Source: a virus
DNA: 21,243 nucleotides
Reading direction: 5' to 3' (one strand)
IMG/VR virus record: IMGVR_UViG_3300042305_001810
Span: 1 to 21,243 of that record
Part shown: positions 4,004 to 16,927 of the stretch, one piece after another
Layout: each line of letters begins with the position of its first letter
How positions within the stretch are numbered: position 1 is the stretch's first letter
Translations under genes and position numbers: made by a program
Notes under the pieces: generated by a model
Databases searched by the model: none
What the model was told of the DNA's origin: nothing
What the model saw: the letters and a program-made list of their open reading frames with translations, nothing else

Positions 4004-4991
4004 TTTGATAATAACTAATATCGCTAGTTACCATTTCTTTTACTAGTTGATCAAATGATATTTTAGGCTTCCATCCAAGATTATTTAATGCTTTGGAACT
4101 ATCTCCCTTAAGATAATTAACTTCGCATGGTCTATAGAACTCAGGATCAATATACACATAATCTTTATAATTTAAGCCGATTAATCCAAATGATCTATTT
4201 AAAAAATCCTCTACAGTATATGATATGCCTGTGCTAATAACATAATCATCAGCAATACTGCTATCTAGCATAAGAAACATAGCTTCTACATAATCTTTAG
4301 CATGACCCCAATCTCTACTAGCAGATAAATTACCTAAATGTAATTTTTGATTATTATGCAGTAAGTTGTTGGATAATTGGCCTATATATTTGGTAATTTT
4401 TCGTGTAACAAAATTTTCTCCTCGTCGTGAACTTTCATGGTTAAATAATATACCAGAGCATGAGAATAAATTATAGGCTTCACGATAAATTTGAACTAAT
4501 CTATGGGATGCTAATTTGGCAATAGCGTATGGACTTTGAGGTAAAAATGATGTATTTTCATTTTGAAATTTTTGTCCATTAATTTCAGTATAATTACTAC
4601 CAAACATTTCGCTGGTGCTAGCTTGATAAAATTTAGTCTGTGGACTATCTTGTTTTATAGCTTCTAATAAATTAATAACTCCTATAGTATCAATTTGGAA
4701 TGTTGTGGATGGTTGTTTAAAGCTGGTTCCAACATGACTTTGGGCGGCTAAATTATATAAATGATCTGGCTGATATTTTCTGAGTATATTACTACATCCC
4801 GACGGATCTGTAATATCAAATTCTTCTAAAGTTAAATTTGGATGATTTAGAATATGTTTAATTCTACCTGTTGTATCTGTGCTGGATCTTCTATATAATC
4901 CTATAACCTTATATTCTTTTTCTAGGAGTAATTCGGCCAAATAACTACCATCTTGTCCGGTAATTCCTGTTATAACTGCTGTTTTAGTCAT
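3987..4991 (-). CDS. gmd: GDP-mannose 4,6-dehydratase
   Basis: This 334-aa protein belongs to the extended short-chain dehydrogenase family. It converts GDP-D-mannose to GDP-4-keto-6-deoxy-D-mannose, the precursor of GDP-fucose, GDP-rhamnose and related sugars. Visible features are the NADP-binding GITGQDG (residues 9-15), YRRSS (33-37), NLAAQSHVGTSF (80-91), the TSEMFG block (126-131), the catalytic YAIAK (Y155, K159) and the RDWGHAKDYV substrate segment. Length is close to that of cellular Gmd. The gene starts 4 bp after the stop of the HTH/coiled-coil gene and overlaps the HNH gene, so it is translated as part of the packaging operon. No partner enzyme (fucose synthase, rhamnose reductase or glycosyltransferase) is visible in the window. 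Confidence 0.95.
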   Translation of the reverse strand: MTKTAVITGITGQDGSYLAELLLEKEYKVIGLYRRSSTDTTGRIKHILNHPNLTLEEFDITDPSGCSNILRKYQPDHLYNLAAQSHVGTSFKQPSTTFQIDTIGVINLLEAIKQDSPQTKFYQASTSEMFGSNYTEINGQKFQNENTSFLPQSPYAIAKLASHRLVQIYREAYNLFSCSGILFNHESSRRGENFVTRKITKYIGQLSNNLLHNNQKLHLGNLSASRDWGHAKDYVEAMFLMLDSSIADDYVISTGISYTVEDFLNRSFGLIGLNYKDYVYIDPEFYRPCEVNYLKGDSSKALNNLGWKPKISFDQLVKEMVTSDISYYQNEKKL

Positions 4992-4995
4992 AAAA

Positions 4996-5808
4996 TTATT
5001 CTACAGTATCTGGGGTTAAAAATGGTTTGTCTTGAGTATTATCAACATAAGTATGATAATTACTAAGTTTATTTTTATATTTTTCTGTGGCTAATGCTAA
5101 AATTTCCATTTCTCTTCCTTCTTTTTCTCTTATTTGTTCGTCTTCTAGCATGCGTATTAATCCTATCCAACTACTTTTACCGTCCTCTATTCTTTTGATT
5201 CTTTGTTCTCTGGTTGCTTTAAGATCTTTACTTATCTTTTGTTGCTCATTAAGTAGCTTTGTATACTCATTTGTATAATTAGCTATACTATTACGAGCGA
5301 AACTTAGCTGGGTTTCTAGATTAGCTAATTTAGGAATATCTCTTTGATCTTCTGATTTCTCGTATTCTTTATCTACTAAGCGTTGTAGTTTTTCGGTTTC
5401 TGCTATGTGTCGTTTTCTTTCTTTCATGCTACGATTAATAAGAATATCAATAGTAATAAATTGTTTAATTTGTAATTCTTCAGCAGGAAGAACGTCCTCT
5501 CTGAACTGTTTGATAAGTCCTATCCATGTATCTTCAAAGTATTTTAGTTCTCCACTATCTTCATCAAATTGTTTTTTTATTTCGGGCCAAAATGTTTTAC
5601 TGTATAATTTTTGTCGTAAAATTTCATTATCTTTTAACTCTTGACTATTGTCTATAATTGTTAAATTATTTTCTTTAATATATCTTTTAATAGGATCAAG
5701 ATTTCTATTGAGCTGATCAGCAATTTGCTCTATAGTTAAAGATCCATAACTATCTCTAATAAATTTTTCTTCGTCTAAGCTTAGTTGTCCTCGTTTTTTA
5801 TTTATCAT
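4996..5808 (-). CDS. HTH plus coiled-coil protein, candidate small terminase
   Basis: This 270-aa protein begins with a helix-turn-helix-like segment (residues about 10-48, core LTIEQIADQLNRNLDPIKRYIKENN). A long, charged, heptad-rich region follows from about 95 to 225 (many K, E and R, e.g. EKLQRLVDKEYEKSEDQRD), which should be coiled coil. An N-terminal DNA-binding HTH followed by an oligomerising helical region is the architecture of small terminase subunits, which recognise the packaging site. The gene lies in the same operon upstream of the large terminase, but three other genes intervene, which is unusual. It overlaps the sigma-like gene by 11 bp. The function is inferred from architecture and position only. 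Another DNA-binding structural or regulatory protein is possible. Confidence 0.6.
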   Translation of the reverse strand: MINKKRGQLSLDEEKFIRDSYGSLTIEQIADQLNRNLDPIKRYIKENNLTIIDNSQELKDNEILRQKLYSKTFWPEIKKQFDEDSGELKYFEDTWIGLIKQFREDVLPAEELQIKQFITIDILINRSMKERKRHIAETEKLQRLVDKEYEKSEDQRDIPKLANLETQLSFARNSIANYTNEYTKLLNEQQKISKDLKATREQRIKRIEDGKSSWIGLIRMLEDEQIREKEGREMEILALATEKYKNKLSNYHTYVDNTQDKPFLTPDTVE

Positions 5809-6415
5809 AACTATTAAATTTTTTCATTAAAGATTGAATATGATTTTGTAATTTAACTAATTTTTGTTTTGTGATCTTTTCTCCATGCTTTAGTCTTAGA
5901 TAAGTTTCTCTATAATCAGCATGAATATTTATATCTAAAAAATTAATTAATTCACTATTTTCGGTTAAAGCATCAAAATTAAATTTGTTAGTTATATCGT
6001 AGTCAATATAGCTAGGTTTCATGATATTTTTTTTACTGTTGTTTCTTTTTATCCATGAAGCATATAGATCACAATCATTTTTATTCTCATATTTTTCACA
6101 TTCGCTGGTGGAAACTTTGCACTTAGCATCATACAAAGGACAAGTTAGACAGGGTTTATCTGGTCTTTGATAATTATTTCTTTTGTAATTAAAGAGTCTA
6201 TTTCTAACATGTGTCCATAAAAAGTTTTCTAAAGGACGACTATGATCATATTTTTCTAAGCCTTCTAGAGCGAATATGGCCGCTTGCTGTTTCATATCAT
6301 CAATATCATGATATCCGAATCTGAATTTATATACTAACCTTTTACTAATATTATCTAATACGGTCAAAAATTCTTCTTCGGTAACTTTTTTATTTTGATT
6401 TATTTTCTTGGTCAT
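5798..6415 (-). CDS. Phage sigma-70 region-2-like transcription factor
   Basis: This 205-aa protein has a clear sigma-70 region 2 at residues about 32-82. DIDDMKQQAAIFALEGLEKYD resembles region 2.1-2.2 (core RNA polymerase contact), and ENFLWTHVRNRLFNYKRNNYQRP resembles region 2.3-2.4 (-10 recognition and melting). A five-Cys segment follows (C89, C92, C99, C106, C115) and may bind zinc. The C-terminus (about 165-200, YLRLKHGEKITKQKLVKLQ) is too short for a standard region 4. Small sigma factors of this type direct late transcription in some large phages (T4 gp55 is the classic case). Its place at the head of the structural operon fits a late-gene role. It overlaps the genes on both sides. 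Confidence 0.78.
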   Translation of the reverse strand: MTKKINQNKKVTEEEFLTVLDNISKRLVYKFRFGYHDIDDMKQQAAIFALEGLEKYDHSRPLENFLWTHVRNRLFNYKRNNYQRPDKPCLTCPLYDAKCKVSTSECEKYENKNDCDLYASWIKRNNSKKNIMKPSYIDYDITNKFNFDALTENSELINFLDINIHADYRETYLRLKHGEKITKQKLVKLQNHIQSLMKKFNSYDK

Positions 6416-6536
6416 CTAATAGTTCTGCTATGCTTTTGCCTTCCTCTAATTCTAGATCATAAGCAATATCAACTCCTGAAGCTTTTACTTCTAAGATTGA
6501 TGATATTAGATCATTTTGATTAATTTCTGGATTCAT
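6390..6536 (-). CDS. Small acidic protein, unknown function
   Basis: A 48-aa frame opens at ATG 6534-6536 (MNPEINQNDL...) and ends with TAA, overlapping the sigma-like gene by 26 bp. It is acidic and helical in character (LELEEGKSIAELLDDQENKSK). An AAGGATA-type Shine-Dalgarno sequence lies about 6 bases before the ATG. No family is recognised. As the first gene of the minus-strand operon, directly upstream of a sigma factor, it could be a co-regulator or a leader peptide. That idea comes only from position. Confidence 0.55.
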   Translation of the reverse strand: MNPEINQNDLISSILEVKASGVDIAYDLELEEGKSIAELLDDQENKSK

Positions 6537-6546
6537 AAAAATATCC

Positions 6547-6577
6547 TTGCGTAAAAAATATCAACCTTTAGTATAAT
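6547..6577 (+). promoter_or_regulatory. Plus-strand promoter of the 6620 gene
   Basis: TTGCGT (6547-6552) and a consensus TATAAT (6572-6577) are separated by 19 bp. The long spacer differs from the 16-bp class used in the right half. The TSS would lie near 6584, giving a leader of about 35 nt with AAGGAT before ATG 6620. Confidence 0.5.
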
Positions 6578-6586
6578 AGTGTTGAT
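6560..6586. promoter_or_regulatory. Inverted repeat flanking the -10 in the divergent intergenic region
   Basis: ATCAAC (6560-6565) and GTTGAT (6581-6586) are perfect 6-bp arms separated by 15 bp that contain the TATAAT. Read on the other strand, the same stretch offers TATACT facing the minus operon. A dimeric repressor bound here would cover both divergent promoters. The small DNA-binding protein encoded at 6620 is the obvious autoregulation candidate. This is inference from position. Confidence 0.4.
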
Positions 6587-6619
6587 TATTTTTCTGGCAA
6601 TGTACAAAGGATAAAAATT

Positions 6620-6850
6620 ATGGCTAATTACAAAAAATGGACAAATGCTGAATTGGATTTTCTTTCTAAGAATCATACTCTTTTGAATGATGCCGAGTTG
6701 GCTGCAAAGTTATCTAAAATGGGCGGAGAAAATGTTACTACTGCTATGGTTCGTCGTCAAAGACGAAAACTGAATATCAAGAAAAGCAGAGGTCGTCCAC
6801 CAAAGATCAAAGAAGTATCTCAACCTGTTGATGAAAATTTAACAGTGTGA
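6620..6850 (+). CDS. Small Myb/SANT-like HTH protein with AT-hook
   Basis: This 76-aa basic protein has residues 5-52 (KKWTNAELDFLSKNH ... VTTAMVRRQRRKLNI) forming a three-helix, SANT/Myb-like or sigma-region-4-like DNA-binding unit. An AT-hook-type RGRP at 57-60, preceded by KKS, follows, then an acidic tail. It is the only plus-strand gene in the left half. It has its own promoter and AAGGAT ribosome site, and ends in a strong terminator. It probably binds AT-rich DNA and may regulate the divergent structural operon. The stop is TGA. Family membership beyond the general HTH look is not certain. Confidence 0.75.
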   Translation: MANYKKWTNAELDFLSKNHTLLNDAELAAKLSKMGGENVTTAMVRRQRRKLNIKKSRGRPPKIKEVSQPVDENLTV

Positions 6851-6880
6851 TTTGGTCTAATTAGTTTATTCAAATAAAAG

Positions 6881-6908
6881 AGGAGAGTTAAATACTCTCC
6901 TTTTTTTA
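6881..6908. terminator. Bidirectional rho-independent terminator
   Basis: GGAGAGT (6882-6888) and ACTCTCC (6894-6900) form a perfect 7-bp stem with a 5-base loop, followed by TTTTTTT for plus-strand transcripts and preceded by an A-run on the other side. It lies between two convergent genes and can serve both. Confidence 0.88.
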
Positions 6909-7193
6909 TTCTTTAAATGGAATAATATGTTTTCTGGTAAAATATAAATTAATAAAAAATCCGCAAAAAGCAGATAATACATTGCTTGAGAACCCTATAT
7001 TGTAGCTGTCTAATGGGTTTATATAGAAGCTTAATAACAAGCTGATCCAAAAACTAGAACACTCATGACATAATAAAGGATCTCTAATATATGGAATTCT
7101 AGCTACTATATTTCTTAGGGGGCGACTAGCTTCAGTATCACTCCAAGCGTAACATAATCCTAAGCTAGAGAATAAATATATTATAAATATCAT
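6906..7193 (-). CDS. Small membrane protein with CxxCxxFW motif (DUF1360-like)
   Basis: This 95-aa protein has a hydrophobic N-terminus (1-15), a polar stretch with ARIPYIRDPLLCHECSSFW (C42, C45, F48, W49) and two further hydrophobic segments (about 48-58 and 70-86). The arrangement 'R.P....L.C..C..FW' at the start of a membrane helix resembles DUF1360-type phage and bacterial membrane proteins. The function of that family is unknown. The gene start overlaps the TGA of the gene upstream (TTATGATA), so translation is probably coupled. The family call is from memory of the motif, not a search. Confidence 0.65.
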   Translation of the reverse strand: MIFIIYLFSSLGLCYAWSDTEASRPLRNIVARIPYIRDPLLCHECSSFWISLLLSFYINPLDSYNIGFSSNVLSAFCGFFINLYFTRKHIIPFKE

Positions 7194-7597
7194 AAGAAAT
7201 AAACTACTAATTCATTTTCTCTTTCTACTACACTAAATGCTCGAAACATTCTGCCTTGATTAATATCTTGAGATAAAGCTTTCCAGGCTTCATCATTTTT
7301 AGGTATAATTACAATTTTACCACTATAATTATTTTGTTGTTTTAATAATTCTGCTTTATTTAATTCTATAGTTAATTCTTGTTCATTATATATATATTTA
7401 TTGAGCATGGTTGGTTCTTGTTGCAGCTTATCTGTAAAAAATTTCGTTACGCGACCTCTGCATGAACAATTAGGATTATTTTTAAAAGTTGTCAAATCTG
7501 CTAGAATTTCGGGGAAGTCTGTTTTTAATCTATCAAAAGTAGATTCATTTTTAAGTAGATATGGTAAAGCTGATGATAAATTTTGAATAGTAATCAT
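7190..7597 (-). CDS. Unknown phage protein
   Basis: The frame is open from ATG 7609, but the second ATG at 7595-7597 is preferred: GGAG lies 6 bases before it, and that site would sit inside the coding sequence if the first ATG were used. The resulting protein is about 135 aa, with an N-terminal helical part, a short CSCRGRVTKFF motif (Cys 44 and 46 in this numbering) and a C-terminal α/β part (KIVIIPKNDEAWKALSQDI). No family is recognised. The motif spacing does not suggest a complete zinc site. It is followed by the small membrane protein with a 4-bp overlap. Confidence 0.7.
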   Translation of the reverse strand: MITIQNLSSALPYLLKNESTFDRLKTDFPEILADLTTFKNNPNCSCRGRVTKFFTDKLQQEPTMLNKYIYNEQELTIELNKAELLKQQNNYSGKIVIIPKNDEAWKALSQDINQGRMFRAFSVVERENELVVYFL

Positions 7598-7630
7598 TTT
7601 ATACTCCATAAAAGTTTAACAATATAATTT

Positions 7631-7659
7631 ATATTAGTGTTTAAATTAATTATAATCAA
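7631..7659 (-). promoter_or_regulatory. Candidate minus-strand promoter for the 7190-7597 gene
   Basis: Read on the minus strand, TTGATT (complement of 7654-7659) and TAATAT (complement of 7631-7636) are spaced by 17 bp. A TSS near 7624 would give a leader of under 30 nt. The surroundings are extremely AT-rich, so chance matches are likely. Confidence 0.4.
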
Positions 7660-7745
7660 CATTTAATTTTATTAATTAATCATAACTATTTAGCTTAGAC
7701 AGATATAATTCGAGGTTCTTGGCCCGTTTCCAAAACTATCTGCTG

Positions 7746-10292
7746 TTACACAGTTGAAGTAGGAGTTGGCGTAAGTGTTGGAGTTGGAGTATTGGTTAGT
7801 ATTATAGTAGGTGTGAGGGTTGGTGTTGGTGTGACTGTGTTAGTTGGAGTACTCGTTGGTGTGACTGTGTTAGTTGGAGTTGGTGTTGCTGTAGATACAG
7901 CTTCTATGGTCAGAATAGATGTTGATGAATCATATGTTGCATTATATGTTCCAGTAACTCCAATAAGCGTTATATTTTCTGGAATATAAGATTGTACTGT
8001 TGGAGAATTAAATATTTTAAAATAATCTCCTACTGATGGTTCATTATTAAAATAGCAAGTCATTGTAGATGATGTAAATACAACACTACTCAAACTAAAA
8101 TTAGTATTTTCGTTTCTCCAGCCAGGGACATAATTCTGATACATAGACGGACTAGAGACTTTAACCGATCCATAGGCTATATCATAATTTATGATTGAAG
8201 ATGGTAAATATGTGAAATCCAACCATACCATTCCTGTCATATTAGAAGTTCCAAATTTTATACTTATTTCTGGATTAGCATTACCATCTTGTTTTTGCCA
8301 CGAAGATGGTGAAGTTAAAAATCTAACAACTCCTCCGTCATCACAGGCTAATGTTAAAGAATCACTACCAATCCTAAATGCTGAATTAGCGTCAAAAACT
8401 CCCAAAACCCCGGTTTGACTGGGATAAGAACTTCCGCCTAAAATAACTTCAGAATTTGTAATTCCAGATGGTATTTCTAATGCTCTGGAAAAAGTCGAAC
8501 CTCCTCTTGCATTTAATGGTATTTCTGTTTCATCAAATTCAAATGCTCGTTGAGCCATTAATAAAGATACTGGACCAGTATGACTAGAACTTCCAAGTCT
8601 AGGAATAGAACTATTTTGTGCTCCAATAATACTACTCCCGCCACTACCACCGTAAGCATCTCCTGCTAAAATAATGGTTCCTTCTTTAAATAATAAGAAC
8701 TCGCTTCCTGATCCTGATCCTCGGGTTCTCCATATATTATTACGAGTTAAAACCCAAGTACCAGTTCCTTCTTTTTGTATTCTGATTTTTGTATCAGTAT
8801 TATAGAATACTCTACCCACAGCATTATGCTCTGTACTAGATCCGCTAAGAATTAATGTTCTTTCTGGCATTGGAAATGGATTATATGGACATTTAGGAAC
8901 ATTTATTATAGTATCCATTTGTACGGGAATATTTGTATTTGCTAATAGAGTTGTATTTTTCTCTATCGGAAATGAGTAGTTATATAGTCCACTAACTGGT
9001 ATTATTGCTTCTCCTTCACACTCATAACAAAAACGGAAAACAACCGAGGTGTTTATTCCATCTCCATAATTATCTCGGGATGCTACTGTAAAAGTGCGAG
9101 GACCATCATATGTAAAGCAATGATCTATGATATGACCAGAATTACATGGATGACCATTTAAAAATTCATTATTTTGAATAACATTACCATTAAGTAACAA
9201 ATCATCATTAACTTTTCCTATAATATGCATTATAGTAGGTATATTTATACTATTAGGTATGGTGAAATTTTGTGATCCTGCTATGCGAAATACTTCACAT
9301 GGTTGTTGGCCTGTATTTCCAATGATAGAATCAGAATAATTATATATTAGGGGTGTTGTTGTACTATAATAATCGTCACATAATGAGCAAGGACAACCAC
9401 AACTTCCAGGATTTAAACTATAACTCCATACCGGAGGACCTGTAGGATCACCAGTTTCTTCACAAGAAGTTATAATTCCTGTAATAGAAATATCACCATC
9501 AGGACAATCTGTAGATACTGTATTTGACCATTTTTCACAACCTTCTACTAAAAGATCACAATTAATAACTGATAATATTGAATGAATTCCGTCTCCTAAT
9601 GCTTTTGTAGTCATTCCTGACCAACTGCATGTATAAGGATCAAAAGAGTATGATATTGGAATTGGTTCTACTTCACAAGGAGGAGAAACGTCTAATAATG
9701 CTTGACCATTCCATTCAGTATAACAACATTCTGGCATAGGGGATGGTGTTGGGTCTGGTGTTGGCTCTGGAGTTGGGTCTGGCGTTGGCTCTGGCGTTGG
9801 CTCTGGAGTTGGGTCTGGCGTTGGGTCTGGTGTTGTTGTGCTAGTCGGAGTTGATGTGCTAGCTGGTGTTGTCGTATTCGTTGGTGTAGCGCTATAAGTT
9901 GGAGTAACCGTATTAGTTGGAGTAACCGTATTAGTTGGAGTAACCGTATTAGTTGGAGTAACCGTATTAGTTAGAGTAACCGTATTAGTTGGAGTTACCG
10001 TATTAGTTGGAGTTACCGTATTAGTTGGAGTAACCGTATTAGTTGGAGTTACCGTATTAGTTGGAGTTACCGTATTAGTTGGAGTTACCGTATTAGTTGG
10101 AGTAACCGTATTAGTTGGAGTTACCGTATTAGTTGGAGTAGCGCTATTAGTAGGCGTTGGAGTAAACGTATTTGTAGGAGTAATAGTAGGTGTTGCTGTT
10201 CTGGTAGAAGATGGCGTAACCGGAATTGCTGGTGCAGGACAGCATTGTGCTATTTTATTGTCTACTTCTGGTATATCGTATTTTATAGGCAT
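7746..10292 (-). CDS. Large Pro/Thr-repeat appendage or surface protein
   Basis: This 848-aa protein starts with a short head (MPIKYDIPEVDNK...), followed by a Pro/Thr-rich stalk (about 22-187). The stalk holds 13 near-identical NTVTPT hexapeptides (one NTVTLT) and then a DPTPEP block. The centre (about 188-450) is Cys-rich (e.g. SCGCPCSLC), followed by Gly/Ser-rich β-type sequence (e.g. SGSGSEFLLF, YGGSGGSSIIG) to about 795. The protein ends in a second PT-rich tail (about 800-848). No signal peptide is visible. Extended PT linkers between β-rich domains are typical of phage tail or capsid appendages and adhesins, so virion attachment and host or particle binding is the likely role. It could also be a decoration protein. 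No domain family is firmly recognised. Confidence 0.72.
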   Translation of the reverse strand: MPIKYDIPEVDNKIAQCCPAPAIPVTPSSTRTATPTITPTNTFTPTPTNSATPTNTVTPTNTVTPTNTVTPTNTVTPTNTVTPTNTVTPTNTVTPTNTVTPTNTVTLTNTVTPTNTVTPTNTVTPTNTVTPTYSATPTNTTTPASTSTPTSTTTPDPTPDPTPEPTPEPTPDPTPEPTPDPTPSPMPECCYTEWNGQALLDVSPPCEVEPIPISYSFDPYTCSWSGMTTKALGDGIHSILSVINCDLLVEGCEKWSNTVSTDCPDGDISITGIITSCEETGDPTGPPVWSYSLNPGSCGCPCSLCDDYYSTTTPLIYNYSDSIIGNTGQQPCEVFRIAGSQNFTIPNSINIPTIMHIIGKVNDDLLLNGNVIQNNEFLNGHPCNSGHIIDHCFTYDGPRTFTVASRDNYGDGINTSVVFRFCYECEGEAIIPVSGLYNYSFPIEKNTTLLANTNIPVQMDTIINVPKCPYNPFPMPERTLILSGSSTEHNAVGRVFYNTDTKIRIQKEGTGTWVLTRNNIWRTRGSGSGSEFLLFKEGTIILAGDAYGGSGGSSIIGAQNSSIPRLGSSSHTGPVSLLMAQRAFEFDETEIPLNARGGSTFSRALEIPSGITNSEVILGGSSYPSQTGVLGVFDANSAFRIGSDSLTLACDDGGVVRFLTSPSSWQKQDGNANPEISIKFGTSNMTGMVWLDFTYLPSSIINYDIAYGSVKVSSPSMYQNYVPGWRNENTNFSLSSVVFTSSTMTCYFNNEPSVGDYFKIFNSPTVQSYIPENITLIGVTGTYNATYDSSTSILTIEAVSTATPTPTNTVTPTSTPTNTVTPTPTLTPTIILTNTPTPTLTPTPTSTV
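9898..10131 (-). repeat. 13 tandem 18-bp repeats encoding NTVTPT
   Basis: The unit on the plus strand is GTTGGAGTWACCGTATTA, repeated about 13 times with almost no change except a synonymous A/T alternation and one TTAGAGT variant (NTVTLT). Since 18 bp is six codons, gain or loss of units keeps the reading frame, so stalk length can vary freely. Confidence 0.93.
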
Positions 10293-10419
10293 TTGATTAT
10301 ATTATAATATTTAATTTAACAAAGTTGCTTATGTTTTAAATTACACTAGATATTAAGATATTTAAGAGTTATATTAACATTAAAATTTAGGTCATATATT
10401 ATAAGATTATTATCTTAAA
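10293..10419. other. AT-rich spacer with no gene seen
   Basis: Nothing codes convincingly here. A TATAAT on the minus strand (complement of 10301-10306) lies 9 bases before the appendage gene's ATG and could be its -10, but no -35 at a sensible distance was found. Confidence 0.5.
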
Positions 10420-11024
10420 AACCTCTTGACTTCCTAGATGATATTAATGGGTGAAATTTTGTATCTTTTAATAATAAGGTTCAAGATGACTACTATCATG
10501 GTACAGTAATAGCTGGCATAATTGGGGCTGTAGCATTTTTAAAGAGTATAGATATTAGGTACTCAGCATCTCAAATTAAAAAAGCATTATTAGACGGGGC
10601 ATCTTATATAACAGGAGTAGCTTCTAGGGTGGGAAATGGTGTTTTAAATTTGGTGGGGGCCGTTAAACAATTAAAGATGATAAATTTATCAACTCCTGTT
10701 ATGCGTTCGGTTCCCATAGTGCCACCTTCTGTTGGAGTTATACAGTATAAGCTGGATGTTGTTAATAGTTCTAGAATTAAAGGGTGGGCGAATAATAGCA
10801 TCAATGTTAACAATAAAATGTTAGTGGAAGTATCAATTAATAATGTTGTGAAGCATTTGTCGTGGGCAAATCTTTATAGAAGTGATACTAAGAAATACAA
10901 CGGATTTGATGTAGCATTGTCTAGGAAACAGTTTGTGAGCGGCTGGAATTTGGTAAGTATCAAAATTAAAGATACTATCAACAAGAAGGAGCTATTGGTT
11001 TATAGCAACTATATGAGAATATAA
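10420..11024 (+). pseudogene. Broken subtilisin-family (S8) protease gene
   Basis: The conceptual translation reads ...DFLDDING-stop-NFVSFNNKVQDD, then YYHGTVIAGIIGA, then VAFLKSIDIRYSASQIKKAL and VGNGVLNLVGAVKQL. Secreted subtilases carry 'DDINGWNF...DDxxHGTxVAGIIGA' around the catalytic His, so the TGA at about 10451-10453 replaces the conserved Trp. The text then jumps straight from the His motif into the helix that normally follows the catalytic Ser ('GTSMAAP...'). The oxyanion Asn and Ser regions are absent, which suggests an internal deletion at the AG/GA similarity. A C-terminal β-sandwich-like domain (SRIKGWANNS ... FVSGWNLVSIKIKD) remains. From GTG 10629 the frame stays open for 131 codons. 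No start, promoter or Asp motif is visible upstream. Confidence 0.75.
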
Positions 11025-11207
11025 TGGCTAATAAACTGGCTAATTATTATAGGGGGTGCCTATTGTTTTTATACCACCCGGCGGTTTTGTCGAAAAATCC
11101 ACAGACTCCTTGAAAAACAAAAAAACCCCCCATCTTGCCAGGATGCCTAGCAAACTGTGTGCCAATCGGCCGGAAAAATTCCAGAAAGTTTTTCTGATTT
11201 TCTTTTC
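11025..11207. other. Intergenic region at the composition change
   Basis: A 29-codon frame starting ATGGCTAATAAACTGG (11022) has no clear ribosome site and is not called. A TGCCAATCGGC block near 11160 weakly resembles one arm of the twin palindromes and may be a decayed copy. A run of A then C (about 11123-11131) is the only other notable sequence. Confidence 0.35.
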
Positions 11208-11235
11208 TTGATTTGCCGATAACCTAATGTATAAT
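11208..11235 (+). promoter_or_regulatory. CGATA-class promoter P0
   Basis: TTGATT, 16-bp spacer containing TGCCGATA, TATAAT (11230-11235). It is the first of the family and drives the 11256 and 11457 genes after a leader of roughly 15 nt. Confidence 0.85.
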
Positions 11236-11255
11236 CGTGGTATAAGAAAGAGAGA

Positions 11256-11444
11256 ATGAAAATGAAAATTGGTGATTTTGCTTTCGTCGAATATAACAAC
11301 GGCAAACTGTATACGGGTGAGGTTGTGGGCGTGAAGGATATGTCGGAAAATCGCATGCTGTTTACCGTGAATGATCCTGTGGGGTTCAAGTCTCTTTATC
11401 TTGACAAGTGTGTTTCGGTTGAAGTTTGGGAAGCCTCTAAGTAA
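11256..11444 (+). CDS. Small β-rich protein, paralog of the 12246 and 14647 products
   Basis: This 62-aa protein (or 60 aa from the second ATG at 11262, which leaves better room after the AAGAGAGA ribosome site) is predicted to be all-β. Its pattern NGKLYTGEVVGVKD ... RMLFTV ... FKSLYLDKCVSVEV matches NGKKYDGRVVLVRD ... HMFTV ... YRSLYLQDCVSCLKL in the 12246 product and, more weakly, the 14647 product. An SH3/Tudor-like barrel is a reasonable guess from the 'G.V..V.D' strand pattern. No function is known. It is the first gene after promoter P0. Confidence 0.82.
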   Translation: MKMKIGDFAFVEYNNGKLYTGEVVGVKDMSENRMLFTVNDPVGFKSLYLDKCVSVEVWEASK

Positions 11445-11456
11445 AAAGGAAAATCC

Positions 11457-11654
11457 ATGAACATTCACGAAATGATTTGCAAACTGGAAAATGAAGGCTT
11501 GAAGGTTTCCGTGATGAATGATCCGTATACGCTTCATGTAGACGGTTATCATCCCCCACAAAGTAAGGGTTTGCCCGACTGGCTTTGGAATTGCAAGGGC
11601 TGGGGAGTATCATCGTGCGGATTCGCTCGCGTGTTCATGTTCAAAATGAAATAA
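11457..11654 (+). CDS. Small unknown protein
   Basis: This 65-aa protein has a leading amphipathic helix (MNIHEMICKLENEGLKVSV) and then an aromatic Trp-rich segment (LPDWLWNCKGWGVSSCGF). It begins 12 bp after the preceding stop with AAAGGA as a ribosome site, so it is second in the P0 unit. Its last codons run into the T-rich stretch that precedes promoter P1. No family is recognised. The Trp/Cys-rich middle may form a small binding surface. Confidence 0.75.
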   Translation: MNIHEMICKLENEGLKVSVMNDPYTLHVDGYHPPQSKGLPDWLWNCKGWGVSSCGFARVFMFKMK

Positions 11655-11865: not shown

Positions 11866-11896
11866 AAGTTTACTAAATGACATAACGGCAGACAAT

Positions 11897-11940
11897 ATGC
11901 CAAAATGGCAGGCCGCGGGCGCCAACTGCCAAAATGGCAG
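11897..11940. repeat. Twin palindrome copy 1
   Basis: Arms ATGCCAAAATGGCAG (11897-11911) and CTGCCAAAATGGCAG (11926-11940), centres 29 bp apart, spacer GCCGCGGGCGCCAA. The following -35 is 80 bp away, much farther than usual. The intervening DNA includes a 20-bp block (11941-11960) shared with copy 2. Confidence 0.95.
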
Positions 11941-12020
11941 GCGCTGCAAATCTTGTGCCAAACTCTAGCATAGCAAATATCATGCCAAAGAAAATATTTT
12001 TTATCTACGATTTTTTTTAG

Positions 12021-12055
12021 TTGACATTCAAGTATGCCTATGTATAATGTCGATA
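12021..12055 (+). promoter_or_regulatory. Promoter P2, variant with CGATA after the -10
   Basis: TTGACA, 16 bp, TATAAT (12043-12048), then GTCGATA (12049-12055) covering the expected start site. The -35 is part of TTGA-CAT-TCAA. P4 and P6 share this arrangement. Confidence 0.88.
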
Positions 12056-12082
12056 TAAGAGAAAAGGAAAGAGAGAATTGAA

Positions 12083-12220
12083 ATGAGAATGATTGAAGTG
12101 ATTACGTCCGATTGCTGTGGTGATGAAATTAGGGGTTATGATATTTGCTCATGCTGCCTTGAGCATTGTACCCCTATTCTGGAATATGTTTCCGATCCTA
12201 CCGATCCCGATAGCAACTAA
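12083..12220 (+). CDS. Cys-rich microprotein, probable zinc binder
   Basis: This 45-aa frame (MRMIEVITSDCCGDEIRGYD...) follows a GAAAGAGAG ribosome site. It has Cys at 11, 12, 22, 24 and 25 and the ending CLEHC (C25, H28, C29), enough ligands for a small zinc knuckle or ribbon, then an acidic tail (SDPTDPDSN). It is the first gene of the P2 unit and ends 25 bp before the next ATG. It does not match a known zinc-ribbon spacing exactly, so metal binding is an inference. Confidence 0.72.
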   Translation: MRMIEVITSDCCGDEIRGYDICSCCLEHCTPILEYVSDPTDPDSN

Positions 12221-12245
12221 CCCTAGAAAGAAAGAGAATACTACA

Positions 12246-12461
12246 ATGGTCAGCGTGAATGATATGGTAGTTGTCGATCATAAGAACGGTAAAAAGTACG
12301 ATGGTCGAGTTGTTCTGGTTCGTGATTTGCCAAAGGGACATATGTTCACTGTAGCCATGAAGCATTATCCTACTGGCACGATGAAGTATCGTAGTCTATA
12401 CCTTCAAGATTGTGTTTCATGCTTGAAGTTGGAAGATGCAGGATTTGTGTCTGCTACCTAA
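12246..12461 (+). CDS. Small β-rich protein, paralog of the 11256 product
   Basis: ATG 12246 is chosen. The longer frame from 12117 runs through the preceding Cys-rich gene in another frame and has a non-protein-like start, whereas this start aligns with its paralog. The 71-aa product shares NGK.Y.G.VV.V.D, then MFTV, then SLYL..CVS with the 11256 product, with a short insertion (KHYPTGTMK) between strands. An SH3-like barrel is plausible. The stop is followed by a G6-containing intergenic stretch before the next gene of the same unit. Confidence 0.82.
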   Translation: MVSVNDMVVVDHKNGKKYDGRVVLVRDLPKGHMFTVAMKHYPTGTMKYRSLYLQDCVSCLKLEDAGFVSAT

Positions 12462-12523
12462 CTCGGGGGGTTGCAAGGTAGTCTATAGGTTTCTACAATC
12501 CATCATCCTTTGGAGAAAAATAA

Positions 12524-12859
12524 ATGAGTAAGCCACAAATTCTGATTGATGCTGACCGTGTTATCCTGTCGTGCTTTCTTGGAATTGCAATTCCCCACCA
12601 GCCTAGTCTGGCCGATGGTACATACGGGCCGATTCGTAGTGAAAAGGTATTAAAGTTCAATCGCAAGGCTTTGCGAAAGATTGGCAAGCGTAAGGTCGAA
12701 AAGGTCGATCCTCGCTACAATGGTGGCGATGATACTATGATTATCAAGGTTGGTAAGCCTGGTAATGCTGAACGTAAAGAGGCTTTAGCACAGCAGTATG
12801 CTGCTATCATGGCTAGCGGTGAGGAAGTTAGCCCCTTCTCTTGGAGGGGTGATGACTAA
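12524..12859 (+). CDS. Unknown protein
   Basis: This 111-aa protein follows a clear TTTGGAG ribosome site. It begins MSKPQILIDADRVILSCFLG, a β-strand and DAD segment, has a basic middle (LKFNRKALRKIGKRKVEKVD), and ends with an amphipathic helix and SPFSWRGDD. The final residues GDD and the early DAD are suggestive but not enough to call a nuclease or polymerase. It is the last gene of the P2 unit. The 60 bp upstream (12462-12523) contain GGGGGGTTGCAA and no visible promoter. Confidence 0.72.
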   Translation: MSKPQILIDADRVILSCFLGIAIPHQPSLADGTYGPIRSEKVLKFNRKALRKIGKRKVEKVDPRYNGGDDTMIIKVGKPGNAERKEALAQQYAAIMASGEEVSPFSWRGDD

Positions 12860-12923
12860 TAGTAGTATACTATTATTGTTACTATTCTGTTTTACTATTA
12901 GTTACATGGCCCTAAAAGGATAA

Positions 12924-12967
12924 CTGCCAAAATGGCAGGCGGGGCGGCCGGGCTGCCAAAATGGCAG
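12924..12967. repeat. Twin palindrome copy 2
   Basis: Two perfect CTGCCAAAATGGCAG arms (12924-12938, 12953-12967), 29 bp between centres, spacer GCGGGGCGGCCGGG. The next -35 lies 52 bp downstream, with a 20-bp block (12968-12987) nearly identical to that after copy 1. Confidence 0.95.
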
Positions 12968-13019
12968 GCAGTGCAAATGTTGTGCCACAAAAAATAATTT
13001 TTGCCGCTAATTTTTTTAG

Positions 13020-13047
13020 TTGACATTGCCGATACCTAATGTAGAAT
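13020..13047 (+). promoter_or_regulatory. CGATA-class promoter P3
   Basis: TTGACA (13020-13025), 16-bp spacer with TTGCCGATA, TAGAAT (13042-13047). It drives five small genes from 13074 to 14012. A T-run abuts the -35 upstream. Confidence 0.88.
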
Positions 13048-13073
13048 CAAAGCATCACAACGGAGAAAAGATC

Positions 13074-13262
13074 ATGTTTCACGATTTCGATGAAGTGAAC
13101 GCTGTTCTTAACGCTATGGCCGACGAGGGCATGATCGAGCCGATGGTCGAGCCGATTGACGATCCTAACGTGGAAGTGAATTTTTGGGATTGGGCAGATG
13201 TTGTGGGAATTGTAGACGATTTTGTTCCTTCTGATAATCCTTTTTGGGGGGTTGCAAACTAA
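13074..13262 (+). CDS. Small acidic protein
   Basis: This 62-aa protein is MFHDFDEVNAVLNAMADEGM ... VEVNFWDWADVVGIVDDFV ... NPFWGVAN. It is strongly acidic, with few basic residues, and has aromatic FWDW and PFW motifs near the C-terminus. ATG 13074 follows CGGAGAAAAG. Earlier in-frame codons overlap the promoter. It is the first gene of the P3 unit and lies two genes upstream of another highly acidic protein (13340). The function is unknown. The charge would fit a DNA mimic or an inhibitor, but nothing shows this directly. Confidence 0.75.
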   Translation: MFHDFDEVNAVLNAMADEGMIEPMVEPIDDPNVEVNFWDWADVVGIVDDFVPSDNPFWGVAN

Positions 13263-13263
13263 A

Positions 13264-13335
13264 ATGCTTTCTGCTATCATGTTTGTTGTGGGCTATATCG
13301 GTTTATTTTACGTTGCTACCATTGTGAGAGACTAA
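13264..13335 (+). CDS. Single-helix membrane peptide
   Basis: A 23-aa frame (MLSAIMFVVGYIGLFYVAT...) consists of one hydrophobic helix and ends IVRD. It starts 1 base after the preceding stop and ends 4 bases before the next ATG, so there is no room for another gene. A G-rich ribosome site (GGGGGG) lies about 12 bases upstream. Its exact fit between flanking stops and starts argues that it is real. Confidence 0.6.
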   Translation: MLSAIMFVVGYIGLFYVATIVRD

Positions 13336-13339
13336 TGCT

Positions 13340-13585
13340 ATGAGTCACCCTGATCCACTGTTCGATCCCGATAACGCTTATGAGGATGATGATATGTATA
13401 TCCACGATGATACCGCCGATTATAACTATGGAGATCACGACGATTTTTATGCTGACACAATGGACGGCGACCATGATTCCGCGATGACTTCTGCGGGATG
13501 GGGAACCGATGAGGATTATGGTTATTATGGTGATGATCGTGAGGATTTTCACAGTGATGATGGATACGGTTATTATGAAGACTGA
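13340..13585 (+). CDS. Highly acidic Asp/Tyr-rich protein, DNA-mimic candidate
   Basis: This 81-aa protein has about 24 Asp, 4 Glu and 11 Tyr, with a single Arg and no Lys. Repeating patterns such as EDDDMYIHDD, DYNYGDHDDFY and DEDYGYYGDD spread negative charge along the whole chain. Phage proteins of this composition often mimic DNA to block restriction enzymes, CRISPR effectors or nucleoid proteins (Ocr and ArdA are known examples of the principle). No sequence relationship to them is claimed. Disordered acidic scaffolds are the alternative. The next gene's ATG overlaps its TGA region. Confidence 0.78.
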   Translation: MSHPDPLFDPDNAYEDDDMYIHDDTADYNYGDHDDFYADTMDGDHDSAMTSAGWGTDEDYGYYGDDREDFHSDDGYGYYED

Positions 13586-13868
13586 AGATATTAAAAATTG
13601 GGTCGATTCTTACTTTACTAACAGGAATAATAAGATGATGAAGGTTATTGTAACTCATACTGATACTTTTGGTGGTGAGCCTAATTATGGTTGGGTGAAT
13701 CGGCACGAGTTTACTATTAGTCGCTCGGCTGCTCAACACAATATCACTCGACAGGCTAAGGCTTTGGCCGGTATGACGGGTGTAAAGGCTGATACGTTCG
13801 ATTATGATACTGGCCTTACTATCAAGCCTCGCGGTTATCATCAGGTTATTTTTGTGGATTTTGAGTGA
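13575..13868 (+). CDS. Unknown phage protein (MKVIVTHTDTFGG type)
   Basis: The frame can start at ATG 13575 (overlapping the previous TGA, 97 aa) or at ATG 13635/13638 (about 76 aa). AGGA sits about 9 bases before 13635, and MKVIVTHTDTFGGEPNYGWV reads like a natural N-terminus, so the shorter form is quite possible. The core is a β-strand start, then RHEFTISRSAAQHNITRQAKALAGMTG as a helix, then basic β strands to the end. Proteins with this kind of start are common in phages, with no known function. The track upstream of 13575 is a shadow of the acidic gene. Confidence 0.72.
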   Translation: MKTEDIKNWVDSYFTNRNNKMMKVIVTHTDTFGGEPNYGWVNRHEFTISRSAAQHNITRQAKALAGMTGVKADTFDYDTGLTIKPRGYHQVIFVDFE

Positions 13869-13871
13869 GTT

Positions 13872-14012
13872 ATGAAAAAGAAAAAGATTAGTAATTATCA
13901 AAAAGCCTTGGAACGAATGAATCGGGAAACCAATAGAGCGATTGCTCACGTTGAAAATCTAAGTAAACTTTATAACGAAATGATAAAGGAAAAGGTGGCC
14001 GCAAAAAAGTAA
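13872..14012 (+). CDS. Short basic helical protein
   Basis: This 46-aa frame starts MKKKKISNYQKALERMNRET and is almost entirely helical with heptad-like spacing (ALERMNRETNRAIAHVENLSKLYNEMI), so it is probably a small coiled coil. It begins 3 bases after the previous stop, with GAGTGAG as a weak ribosome site. Its TAA directly abuts twin palindrome 3. The function is unknown. Confidence 0.65.
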   Translation: MKKKKISNYQKALERMNRETNRAIAHVENLSKLYNEMIKEKVAAKK

Positions 14013-14056
14013 CTGCCAAAATGGCAGACGGGCCGCGGCGACTGCCAAAATGGCAG
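14013..14056. repeat. Twin palindrome copy 3
   Basis: Perfect arms at 14013-14027 and 14042-14056, 29 bp between centres, spacer ACGGGCCGCGGCGA. It directly follows a TAA stop, and the -35 of P4 is 26 bp beyond it. Confidence 0.96.
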
Positions 14057-14082
14057 GCAAAGATTTTAGGCATTTTTTTTAT

Positions 14083-14117
14083 TTGACTTCTCAAGTTTGA
14101 TGAGTAAAATACCGATA
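14083..14117 (+). promoter_or_regulatory. Promoter P4, variant with CGATA after the -10
   Basis: TTGACT (14083-14088), 16 bp, TAAAAT (14105-14110), ACCGATA (14111-14117). The -35 lies in TTGA-CTTC-TCAA. It drives 14139, 14327 and 14647. Confidence 0.83.
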
Positions 14118-14138
14118 TAAAGGAAAGAGGAAAAACAA

Positions 14139-14324
14139 ATGAACGCTTCAACTACCGACGTTGTGATTCACGCTACGACGCTGAGTGGTGCAAAGGTTCG
14201 CGTGAATACTTTCGACGTTATCATCGAGAACGGAAAGCCGCTGATTGTGTTTTTTGCGGTTGACGAAAACGGCCAGCACGGTATCTTCAATCAGAACGAA
14301 CTCACTAACTATACGGAGCGTTGA
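14139..14324 (+). CDS. Small β-rich unknown protein
   Basis: This 61-aa protein is MNASTTDVVIHATTLSGAKVRV ... IIENGKPLIVFFAVDENGQHGIFNQNELTNYTER. Alternating hydrophobic strands suggest a small β barrel or sheet, in the same size class as the SH3-like paralogs but without clear sequence identity to them. Start chosen after AAAGGAAAGAGG. It ends 2 bases before the next gene's ATG. No family is recognised. Confidence 0.78.
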   Translation: MNASTTDVVIHATTLSGAKVRVNTFDVIIENGKPLIVFFAVDENGQHGIFNQNELTNYTER

Positions 14325-14326
14325 AA

Positions 14327-14644
14327 ATGATTCATTCCGAAGCGGTATCTATGGTTCGTGGCAAGCGTAATGCTAATCGTCGCAAGGTTGGAAACAATAC
14401 CTACGCTGAAATTCTGAGCGATGGTAGCGTGGGGATTATGCTGCACAGTACCTACGTTGTGAAGATTCATCCCGACAATACCTACACTCTGAATAGTGGT
14501 GGATGGCAGACTCTGACCACTAAGGATAGAATCAACCAGTATAGTCCGCGATATGTTTACCAGAAGAATTTTGAGTGGTTTGTAAAGATTGACGACAAGA
14601 GTTATCCTTTCATGGATGGTATGGTGGTAGGAGCGGAGAAGTAA
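14327..14644 (+). CDS. Conserved-looking phage protein of unknown function
   Basis: ATG 14327 with GGAG 8 bases before it is preferred over the TTG at 14321. The 105-aa product has RKVGNNTYAEILSDGSVGIMLHSTYVVKIHPDNTYTLNSGGWQTLTTKDRIN in five separable segments (residues about 18-70), followed by QKNFEWFVKI. The pattern 'GNNTY.E...DGS..i.LH.T.VV..HPD...TLNSGGW.T.TTK.RIN' is one I recall from many phage genomes without a function. The all-β N-terminal part with repeated turns (SDGS, HPDN) suggests a small barrel. Confidence 0.82.
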   Translation: MIHSEAVSMVRGKRNANRRKVGNNTYAEILSDGSVGIMLHSTYVVKIHPDNTYTLNSGGWQTLTTKDRINQYSPRYVYQKNFEWFVKIDDKSYPFMDGMVVGAEK

Positions 14645-14646
14645 TA

Positions 14647-14847
14647 ATGAGTATGCGTGAACATTACAACAAACGTTTCACTGGTCAGCGTAAAGATGGT
14701 CGTATTTTTACTGGTGTTATTATTGATGTTTGGAGTTGGCCATCTACTAATCCCGCTAAGGGTGAAATGCTTGTAATTAAGCAGGACGATGGGCTTATCA
14801 AGAGTATTTTGGTTAATAATTTAACATATTGTAATATTACTGAGTGA
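14647..14847 (+). CDS. Small β-rich protein, third member of the SH3-like paralog set
   Basis: This 66-aa protein starts 2 bases after the preceding stop, with GGAGAAG upstream. KDGRIFTGVIIDVWSWPS ... GEMLVIKQDDGLIKSILVNNLTYC aligns in pattern with NGKLYTGEVVGVKD ... MLFTV ... FKSLYLDKCVS of the 11256 product: conserved (N/D)G+.(Y/F).G.(V/I)(V/I) and final KS-hydrophobic-C. It differs by a longer loop (SWPSTNPAKG). It is last in the P4 unit. Confidence 0.75.
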   Translation: MSMREHYNKRFTGQRKDGRIFTGVIIDVWSWPSTNPAKGEMLVIKQDDGLIKSILVNNLTYCNITE

Positions 14848-14856
14848 GTAATAATA

Positions 14857-14900
14857 CTGCCAAAATGGCAGGCGGGCCGCGATTTCTGCCAAATTGGCAC
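14857..14900. repeat. Twin palindrome copy 4
   Basis: CTGCCAAAATGGCAG (14857-14871) and CTGCCAAATTGGCAC (14886-14900), 29 bp between centres, spacer GCGGGCCGCGATTT. The -35 of P5 lies 26 bp after it. Confidence 0.95.
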
Positions 14901-14926
14901 GATATTTGCTATCTAAAGTTTTCGTA

Positions 14927-14954
14927 TTGACAAGCCGATAAACTATGGTAGGAT
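14927..14954 (+). promoter_or_regulatory. CGATA-class promoter P5, leaderless configuration
   Basis: TTGACA (14927-14932), 16 bp with AGCCGATA, TAGGAT (14949-14954). Only six bases (AAAGTT) separate the -10 from ATG 14961, so transcription should begin at or next to the start codon. Confidence 0.85.
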
Positions 14955-14960
14955 AAAGTT

Positions 14961-15131
14961 ATGAGCAAGCAGAATAAGGAAATCGTCGTGAAGTTGAATG
15001 TTCGTCCGTTGTGGGAAATTGGGCACGGCCATAGTGAGCATCGGTCTGGTAGTGGACAACACGACAACCGAACTAAGAGACTGCGTACTCGCGGTTCTCA
15101 AAAGAGACAGGCGATTAGCGACGGGTGGTGA
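14961..15131 (+). CDS. Small basic protein, predicted leaderless mRNA
   Basis: This 56-aa protein is MSKQNKEIVVKLNVRPLWEI followed by a Gly/His/Ser-rich stretch (GHGHSEHRSGSGQHDN) and a basic tail (RTKRLRTRGSQKRQAISDGW). The composition suggests a nucleic-acid-binding, partly disordered protein. The only AGGA-like sequence upstream is inside the -10 box and would not be in the mRNA, so translation should start on a leaderless transcript. The TGA stop is the first three bases of hairpin element 1. Confidence 0.72.
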   Translation: MSKQNKEIVVKLNVRPLWEIGHGHSEHRSGSGQHDNRTKRLRTRGSQKRQAISDGW

Positions 15132-15184
15132 CTGTCTCACCTAACCCTACGGGTTTGGATGTGGTGGATGTAGTCAGCGAAAAA
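15129..15184 (+). ncRNA. 56-nt conserved hairpin element, copy 1
   Basis: It begins with the TGA of the preceding gene. It contains the hairpin AACCC-TAC-GGGTT flanked by CC...GG, an outer TGACT/AGTCA stem and the 3' tail GTAGTCAGCGAAAAA. Copies 2 and 3 have AATCC-TAC-GGATT, a compensatory C-G to T-A change. Here the element sits inside an operon, 20 bp before the ribosome site of the next gene and with no promoter in between. RNA class unknown. Confidence 0.7.
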
Positions 15185-15204
15185 ACTAAAGAAAGGGAAC
15201 ACGG

Positions 15205-15303
15205 ATGTTCGATATAAATTGGGTGAGTGTGAGTGTGGGATTTATTGTTGGCATTTTTGGTTCTTATCTTGTTCATGATCTTGTTTTTCCAGTAAAGGAA
15301 TGA
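15205..15303 (+). CDS. Single-helix membrane peptide
   Basis: This 32-aa frame is MFDINWVSVSVGFIVGIFGS with a tail YLVHDLVFPVKE: a short polar head, one transmembrane helix and a polar tail. AAAGGGA lies about 8 bases before ATG 15205. It ends 1 base before the start of a second membrane peptide, so the two are likely translated together. Function unknown. Paired small membrane peptides in phages can be holin- or superinfection-related, but nothing here proves that. Confidence 0.68.
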   Translation: MFDINWVSVSVGFIVGIFGSYLVHDLVFPVKE

Positions 15304-15304
15304 T

Positions 15305-15382
15305 ATGAATAATAAAGAGAAGATGATTTTTATTTTTATGTGCTTTATCACTGGTTGTATTGTAACCTATTTGATTAACTAA
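15305..15382 (+). CDS. Single-helix membrane peptide
   Basis: This 25-aa frame is MNNKEKMIFIFMCFITGCIV, tail TYLIN: a basic head and one hydrophobic helix, consistent with N-in topology. AAAGGA lies 6 bases before the ATG. It immediately follows another one-helix peptide and ends just before twin palindrome 5. Confidence 0.62.
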   Translation: MNNKEKMIFIFMCFITGCIVTYLIN

Positions 15383-15390
15383 TAATTAGC

Positions 15391-15434
15391 CTGCCAAAAT
15401 GGCGGGCGCCGCGGCCAAACTGCCAAAATGGCAT
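15391..15434. repeat. Twin palindrome copy 5
   Basis: CTGCCAAAATGGCGG (15391-15405) and CTGCCAAAATGGCAT (15420-15434), 29 bp between centres, spacer GCGCCGCGGCCAAA. A T9 run and the -35 of P6 follow, 26 bp after the second arm. Confidence 0.95.
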
Positions 15435-15460
15435 ACTAAATATTTTCATTTTTTTTTTAT

Positions 15461-15495
15461 TTGACATTCAAGAGTTTGTTGGTAAAATACCGATA
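15461..15495 (+). promoter_or_regulatory. Promoter P6, variant with CGATA after the -10
   Basis: TTGACA (15461-15466), 16 bp, TAAAAT (15483-15488), ACCGATA (15489-15495). It contains the same TTGACATTCAAG start as P2. Confidence 0.85.
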
Positions 15496-15516
15496 ACAGA
15501 AGCAAAGGAGAAGAAA

Positions 15517-15732
15517 ATGGACACCACTAAGATTCGTGATACGCTGAAGCAAATTTGGGCTGATGAAAGCCATAATGTGAGTCTGATTTTGACCGTTGAT
15601 GGCAAACTGTATGCCGAGTGTGAGTCCACTTTTGATCGTCGTAGGATTACGGAAAACAATTGCTACGAAGTATTGAACGATATGTTTTATGATTACTGTC
15701 TGGAAAATGCAATTTGGATGGGAGTCTCCTGA
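15517..15732 (+). CDS. Small unknown protein
   Basis: This 71-aa protein is MDTTKIRDTLKQIWADESHN, then β strands (VSLILTVDGKLYAECES), then a helix (NNCYEVLNDMFYDYCLENAIW). An α-β-β-α order with a conserved-looking VDGKLYAE turn suggests a compact domain, but no family is recognised. A strong AAAGGAG precedes ATG 15517. It is the only gene of the P6 unit, and its TGA starts hairpin element 2. Confidence 0.8.
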   Translation: MDTTKIRDTLKQIWADESHNVSLILTVDGKLYAECESTFDRRRITENNCYEVLNDMFYDYCLENAIWMGVS

Positions 15733-15785
15733 CTGTCCCATCTAATCCTACGGATTTGGCTATATGGGCTGTAGTCAGCGAAAAA
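15730..15785 (+). ncRNA. 56-nt conserved hairpin element, copy 2
   Basis: It has the same length as copy 1 and also begins with a TGA stop. Stems: TGACT/AGTCA outer, CCCAT/ATGGG middle, AATCC-TAC-GGATT apical. Promoter P7 begins 18 bp after its AGTCAGCG tail, so here it sits at a transcription-unit boundary where a twin palindrome would otherwise be expected. Confidence 0.72.
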
Positions 15786-15798
15786 CCGTTTTCTTTTG

Positions 15799-15826
15799 TT
15801 GACAATGCCGATTCTAAATGTATAAT
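15799..15826 (+). promoter_or_regulatory. CGATA-class promoter P7 (CCGATT variant)
   Basis: TTGACA (15799-15804), 16 bp with ATGCCGATT, TATAAT (15821-15826). This is the only family member with a T in place of the last A of the motif. It drives 15847, 16005 and 16084. Confidence 0.87.
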
Positions 15827-15846
15827 CTATTCATCAGGAGAGAACA

Positions 15847-16008
15847 ATGAAAAACGATTATGATGCTTATTTGGCTAGGATTCAAGCGAAAGAATACTGG
15901 AAGAATCGTAAAGGCCCAACGCCAACGGAAATGATTAAAAAAGCGGACGAGGGATGGATCGTGATTCATCATCCAAGCGGATTGACCGAAAGGATAAAAA
16001 AGTCGTGA
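15847..16008 (+). CDS. Small basic unknown protein
   Basis: This 53-aa frame is MKNDYDAYLARIQAKEYWKN ... TEMIKKADEGWIVIHHPSGL ... IKKS. Start at ATG 15847 after AGGAGAGA. The N-terminal helix is followed by GWIVIHHPSGLTERI, a β-hairpin-like segment. First gene of the P7 unit, ending in GTGA, which provides the start of the next frame. No family is recognised. Confidence 0.74.
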   Translation: MKNDYDAYLARIQAKEYWKNRKGPTPTEMIKKADEGWIVIHHPSGLTERIKKS

Positions 16009-16082
16009 TTGCTCTTGTGTTTTTTGCATTTATAGGCTATCATTGGTTTTTAGAGATCGAAGCACTTTTTATTAGGAAGTAA
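16005..16082 (+). CDS. Single-helix membrane peptide, GTG start
   Basis: This 25-aa frame starts with GTG inside the GTGA overlap and is one hydrophobic helix (MIALVFFAFIGYHWFLEIEA) with a basic end (RK). AAAGGA lies about 10 bases upstream. Its TAA is 1 base before the next ATG. The tight packing supports it, but the GTG start and small size leave doubt. Confidence 0.5.
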   Translation: MIALVFFAFIGYHWFLEIEALFIRK

Positions 16083-16083
16083 A

Positions 16084-16341
16084 ATGAACGGTTATGAATT
16101 GCTCGCAGAGTTTGATCGGATTATCAAGGATGTTATTCTGATTCCTAATGATTGGCTGCCCGAAAACTTTCGTGATAATCGTACCGATAGTGTTTCATTG
16201 GCCGATCTTGAACGCAAGTGTGATTCGTTAGAGATTGGCGAAACCGATCATCAAATCGAAAAGAGCGAAAAGGATAAGCGGATAGCAGCATATTCCGCTA
16301 TGATTGAAAAAGAACAAGAGATAACCTATCTGCCAAAATGA
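16084..16341 (+). CDS. Unknown acidic helical protein ending inside a palindrome
   Basis: This 85-aa protein is MNGYELLAEFDRIIKDVILI ... NRTDSVSLADLERKCDSLEI ... EKSEKDKRIAAYSAMIEKEQ..., mostly helical and charged. Start after TTAGGAAG. The coding sequence runs into the first arm of twin palindrome 6. The codons CTG CCA AAA TGA are part of the arm, and the G-to-A change that makes CTGCCAAAATGACAG also creates the stop codon. No family is recognised. Confidence 0.76.
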   Translation: MNGYELLAEFDRIIKDVILIPNDWLPENFRDNRTDSVSLADLERKCDSLEIGETDHQIEKSEKDKRIAAYSAMIEKEQEITYLPK

Positions 16342-16373
16342 CAGATGGGCCGCGAAAACTGCCAAATTGACAG
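16330..16373. repeat. Twin palindrome copy 6
   Basis: CTGCCAAAATGACAG (16330-16344) and CTGCCAAATTGACAG (16359-16373), 29 bp between centres, spacer ATGGGCCGCGAAAA. Both arms carry the same GGCAG to GACAG change, breaking one stem pair. The -35 of P8 is 23 bp on. Confidence 0.94.
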
Positions 16374-16396
16374 GAATTTTTTTCTAAAGCGGCGGC

Positions 16397-16424
16397 TTGA
16401 CAAGTGTCGATAATAGAGTATACT
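16397..16424 (+). promoter_or_regulatory. CGATA-class promoter P8
   Basis: TTGACA (16397-16402), 16 bp with AGTGTCGATA, TATACT (16419-16424). It drives the single gene at 16461. Confidence 0.86.
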
Positions 16425-16460
16425 GGTGGAAAAGGTTTTCAATAACGAAAGGGTTTGATA

Positions 16461-16871: not shown

Positions 16872-16883
16872 GGGGGTTTTGGC

Positions 16884-16927
16884 CTGCCAAATTGGCAGCC
16901 GGGCCGCGAAAACTGCCAATATGGCGG
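16884..16927. repeat. Twin palindrome copy 7
   Basis: CTGCCAAATTGGCAG (16884-16898) and CTGCCAATATGGCGG (16913-16927), 29 bp between centres, spacer CCGGGCCGCGAAAA. A T7 run starts 3 bases later, and the -35 of P9 is 23 bp on. Confidence 0.95.

Follow-up and report, generated by a model that had tools for sequence, protein, structure and literature searches.

A subtilase remnant with an in-frame TGA in an uncultured phage is very probably a pseudogene of a patchily distributed cargo gene

Does an in-frame TGA at a conserved Trp position of a phage subtilase reflect reassignment of a stop codon or decay of the gene? This question is raised by a locus in a 21,243-b stretch of viral DNA, which is the whole IMG/VR virus record IMGVR_UViG_3300042305_001810 and is referred to here as the window. 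The left arm of the window consists of minus-strand genes at about 30% GC and the right arm of small plus-strand genes at about 41% GC, with the locus lying between them. The left arm encodes a large terminase (phrog_2, E=6e-21), an adjoining gene that is probably the portal according to its position, an ERCC4 nuclease, an HNH nuclease, a GDP-mannose dehydratase, and a sigma-like factor.

The subtilase pieces were encoded in a single plus-strand frame at positions 10431-11024. In this frame, the preceding stop was TAA at 10416-10418, and the TGA at 10452-10454 was followed by 189 open codons up to TAA at 11022-11024, whereas stop-free runs did not exceed 121 codons in 1000 Markov simulations of the 731-b stretch. 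Homology began near 10431 (FLDDING), and the preceding KPLD had no match. The order of the pieces was DDING-TGA-NF, the His motif, the helix after the catalytic Ser, and an open C-terminal domain. The first part, with DDING-x-NF and the His motif up to IIGA (10431-10530, plus strand), was about 60-70% identical to phage homologues over 33 residues. An earlier note on this DNA had read DDING-W-NF with TGA in place of Trp, and we confirmed that the residue is Trp in 22/22 aligned relatives. The note had also described the His motif as running straight into the post-Ser helix. Alignment with intact relatives agreed: the His motif DDYYHGTVIAGIIGA runs directly into VAFLKSIDIRYSASQIKKALL, which matches GAVALLNSVKPGLSISKVKAAI, the stretch that follows GTSMAAP in those relatives. 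The junction (10523-10535, plus strand) marks where about 155-167 codons between IIGA and GAVAFL were deleted in frame, a loss that includes the oxyanion Asn and the catalytic Ser. It is followed on the same strand by the remnant of the helix and a linker (10530-10730) and by the C-terminal 'GWA' domain (10731-11024), which is open to the TAA stop and has a 5-residue deletion before the NGF motif.

The homology of the remnant was examined with a group-specific profile derived from 13 intact homologues in phages. The profile matched the window at E=4e-24, with two domain matches in the correct order and in the remnant frame only (His segment, i-E=2e-10; C-terminal domain, i-E=5.5e-17). It had no match in 100 simulated windows and detected no other parts of the subtilase gene elsewhere in the window. 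Solved subtilisins matched the remnant at E of about 1e-3 in the His part alone, and the phrog_3677 protease matched it at E=4e-4. Searches with the remnant matched no family in Pfam and no GenBank phage. The closest intact relative was about 40% identical, in the C-terminal domain. The intact phage subtilases are 400-557 aa long, carry Asp, His, Asn, and Ser, and score 114-176 bits against Peptidase S8 (Pfam PF00082). In contrast, the remnant keeps the His segment of this domain and has lost the Asp, Asn, and Ser regions. The region of the catalytic Asp motif (DSG) was absent from the window, and the oxyanion Asn and the catalytic Ser motif (GTSMA) both fell within the deletion. The catalytic His motif (HGT) was present, but its invariant neighbours Gly and second His were changed. 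Because Asp, Asn, and Ser are missing, the remnant cannot work as a protease. Bacillus phage SP-15 and its relatives are likewise large phages with a subtilisin-like protease (subtilase domain), and these proteases were 36% identical to one intact homologue (L114) over the catalytic part. No GenBank record covered 80% of L114, and the GenBank phage subtilisin-like proteases left its C-terminal GWA part and N-terminal motif uncovered.

Relatives of the terminase were found at 67 loci and relatives of the right arm at 26 loci, and both meet in the same contigs (for example, 3300044638_006750, 232,683 b). No near relative of this phage group was found in the GenBank phage collection searched. Gene order on both flanks was kept in the relatives G018 and G030. 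The earlier note had proposed looking for an intact homologue, and intact subtilases were found at the same place and on the same strand, with the same neighbours, in G030, G018/G029, and G009; others lie beside right-arm genes in G036 and G040/G041. About 27 loci holding both flanks, some of them near-duplicates, showed no trace of the gene, which is therefore a patchy cargo gene. A change of composition and strand is present at the remnant as the note had claimed, but it is not a foreign junction. It is the family-wide border between a low-GC and a higher-GC arm, with a GC step of 0.41 vs 0.32 in G030 and 0.45 vs 0.36 in G018. Two other features of the relatives were observed. In G030, a 353-aa intein carrying a LAGLIDADG endonuclease (PF14528, E=7e-27; PF14890, E=2e-9) splits the terminase (L116, 138-3227), and the window terminase has no intein. 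Some large contigs of the group (L103-L106 and L100-L102) encode a second, shorter subtilase in frames of 302-325 aa, far from the cargo site and without the GWA domain.

Taken together, these results indicate that the remnant is very probably an ordinary pseudogene of this cargo gene. The decay favoured by the earlier note is supported by intact homologues at the same site, the loss of three of four catalytic elements, and a TGA that acts as a stop in the whole record. Two residues of GHGTH that are invariant in 22 relatives, the Gly and the second His, differ in the window. In the His segment, 2/13 invariant columns were changed, compared to at most one in any intact member, and in the C-terminal domain 2/13 invariant residues were changed in addition to the 5-residue deletion. 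Judged from these modest numbers, constraint at invariant residues appears to be relaxed in the remnant. Counting against a pseudogene, the core and 5-residue deletions both preserve the frame and no stop interrupts the last 189 codons, features for which a gene dead for a long time would have no need. A literature search for phage-encoded subtilisin pseudogenes found nothing.

The same evidence was weighed against readings in which the gene, or part of it, is functional. If TGA encoded Trp in this phage, the gene could be functional, and the TGA does sit exactly at a Trp that is invariant in relatives. However, when conserved Trp positions (Trp in at least 80% of homologues) were counted in the window genes with homologues, they were Trp in 48/48 cases under table 11 and TGA in 0/48. 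The 29 closed genes examined end in TAA (17) or TGA (12), several of the latter where homologue alignments also end, and the HNH (3728), 6620, and 7190 genes use TGA as a normal stop, as the earlier note had stated. There is no tRNA gene in the window, and Asp, Asn, and Ser are missing even with the TGA read through. The conserved-Trp count and the terminal TGA stops refute stop reassignment for the window record, and its probability is close to nil; the recoding that the note had raised and doubted is rejected. An assembly error or a chimeric contig, with an intact gene in the real phage, would be favoured by the repeat-rich neighbour (18-b repeats at 9774-10223) and by the shift in base composition at the remnant. 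But a second contig, IMGVR_UViG_3300034106_006613 (23,775 b), has other ends, reaches 12.3 kb further left, is 100% identical to window positions 1-11483, and shares the TGA, the deletion, and the arm border. A contig-specific error is unlikely given this identity, although the two contigs may come from related samples and may not be fully independent. The order of the arms is also the same in independent relatives, and several separate lesions would all need to be errors. Synteny and the second contig rule out a chimera, and we regard an assembly artefact as highly improbable.

It may also be asked whether the C-terminal domain is made alone in a non-proteolytic role, for example from GTG 10629 (131 aa). 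The domain is the best-kept part of the remnant, and the 131 open codons from this GTG are preceded by AGGAG 11 b upstream. Against this, no upstream promoter scored above chance, there is no N-terminal signal, the domain carries the internal deletion and changed invariant residues, and there is no diverged orthologue of the remnant for a selection test. Production of the domain by itself is considered very unlikely. A broader proposal, in which Planctomycetota phages export the subtilase via a host surface signal and the window phage still makes the reduced C-terminal domain for a non-proteolytic use, is very unlikely.

For the pseudogene, the following course of decay can be proposed. At the low-GC/high-GC border, related phages carry the gene for a subtilase that is probably exported and has one or two 'GWA' domains in its C-terminal part. 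The window lineage has lost the 5' portion of this gene, which holds the N-terminal signal and the catalytic Asp, and everything before FLDDING is absent here. The earlier note had claimed an internal core loss, which holds, but the damage is not limited to the core, as the 5' third of the gene is also gone. A minus-strand block of three genes (6906-10292), including an 848-aa Pro-Thr-rich protein, now extends to a point shortly before the truncated 5' end of the remnant. The block separates the remnant from the conserved 6620 gene, and it is missing there in G030 and G018; for two of its genes, L056 has homologues at another place, close to the terminase. The truncation point (about 10431) lies about 140 b upstream of the start codon of the 848-aa gene. 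Arrival of the block may have decapitated the subtilase gene, which is the simplest reading of the 5' loss. The 848-aa protein itself (7746-10292) has long (TPTNTV)n repeats and a weak phrog_15511 match, and a search for it elsewhere returned the sister contig only. The in-frame deletion took out both oxyanion Asn and catalytic Ser. Gly-Ala is encoded at both sides of the deletion in several relatives, and a short direct repeat in the intact ancestor may have guided it. The nonsense TGA and the changes at invariant residues accumulated as well. With intact relatives no closer than about 40% identity in the C-terminal domain, the order and age of the lesions are undated. Since the C-terminal frame is still open, the decay is probably recent.

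The right arm of the window was also found to contain about ten intergenic units (11893-21233), each with two TGCCAAAATGGCA palindromes flanking a GC-rich core. They often precede T runs and TTGACA...TAGAAT-like sites. A count of the pattern on one strand had suggested stem-loop repeats unique to the window phage, and this was overturned by a repeat search in G030, where a similar double unit occurs 12 times (L115, 151-14058). The units resemble terminator-promoter cassettes of right arms throughout the group.

The intact gene presumably encodes an exported protease. Nearly all intact phage copies (L123-L166) begin with an LExRxLLS-like motif, such as LEQLETRTLLS, IENLENRSLLT, or VERLESRHVLS. 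This motif, which is lost in the window, resembles the planctomycete extracellular signal PF07595, a cell-surface signal described as planctomycetes-specific (PMC8567305). PF07595 was listed for 6/12 N-termini tested, with every score below the Pfam cut-off, and a planctomycete control with LEYLEPRLLLS was not listed; the model is therefore a weak test. In a pattern check of 50 bacterial and archaeal subtilase loci, the motif was found in five, all Planctomycetota (of about 12 from this phylum), and also in L185, a phage-like contig that had been binned as Gammaproteobacteria; no other group had it. The 7.4-kb contig L185 (RGPR01000093.1) holds the gene for a phage-type subtilase that shares the C-terminal domain and the N-terminal motif, and it is probably a misbinned phage contig. 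A terminase search in 392 Planctomycetota genomes gave no match; for a lytic phage, such a result carries no information. The motif suggests Planctomycetota hosts for the phage group, as a lead that falls short of proof.

The TGA at this locus is settled as one scar of ordinary gene decay, and the genetic code is unaltered. More is to be gained from the intact homologues than from the remnant, as their N-terminal motif provides a modest lead to the host of an uncultured group of large phages, with contigs of up to 233 kb that hold both arms. In this group, the locus represents a phage cargo site in action, at which a protease is kept by some relatives, is absent in most, and is being lost here.
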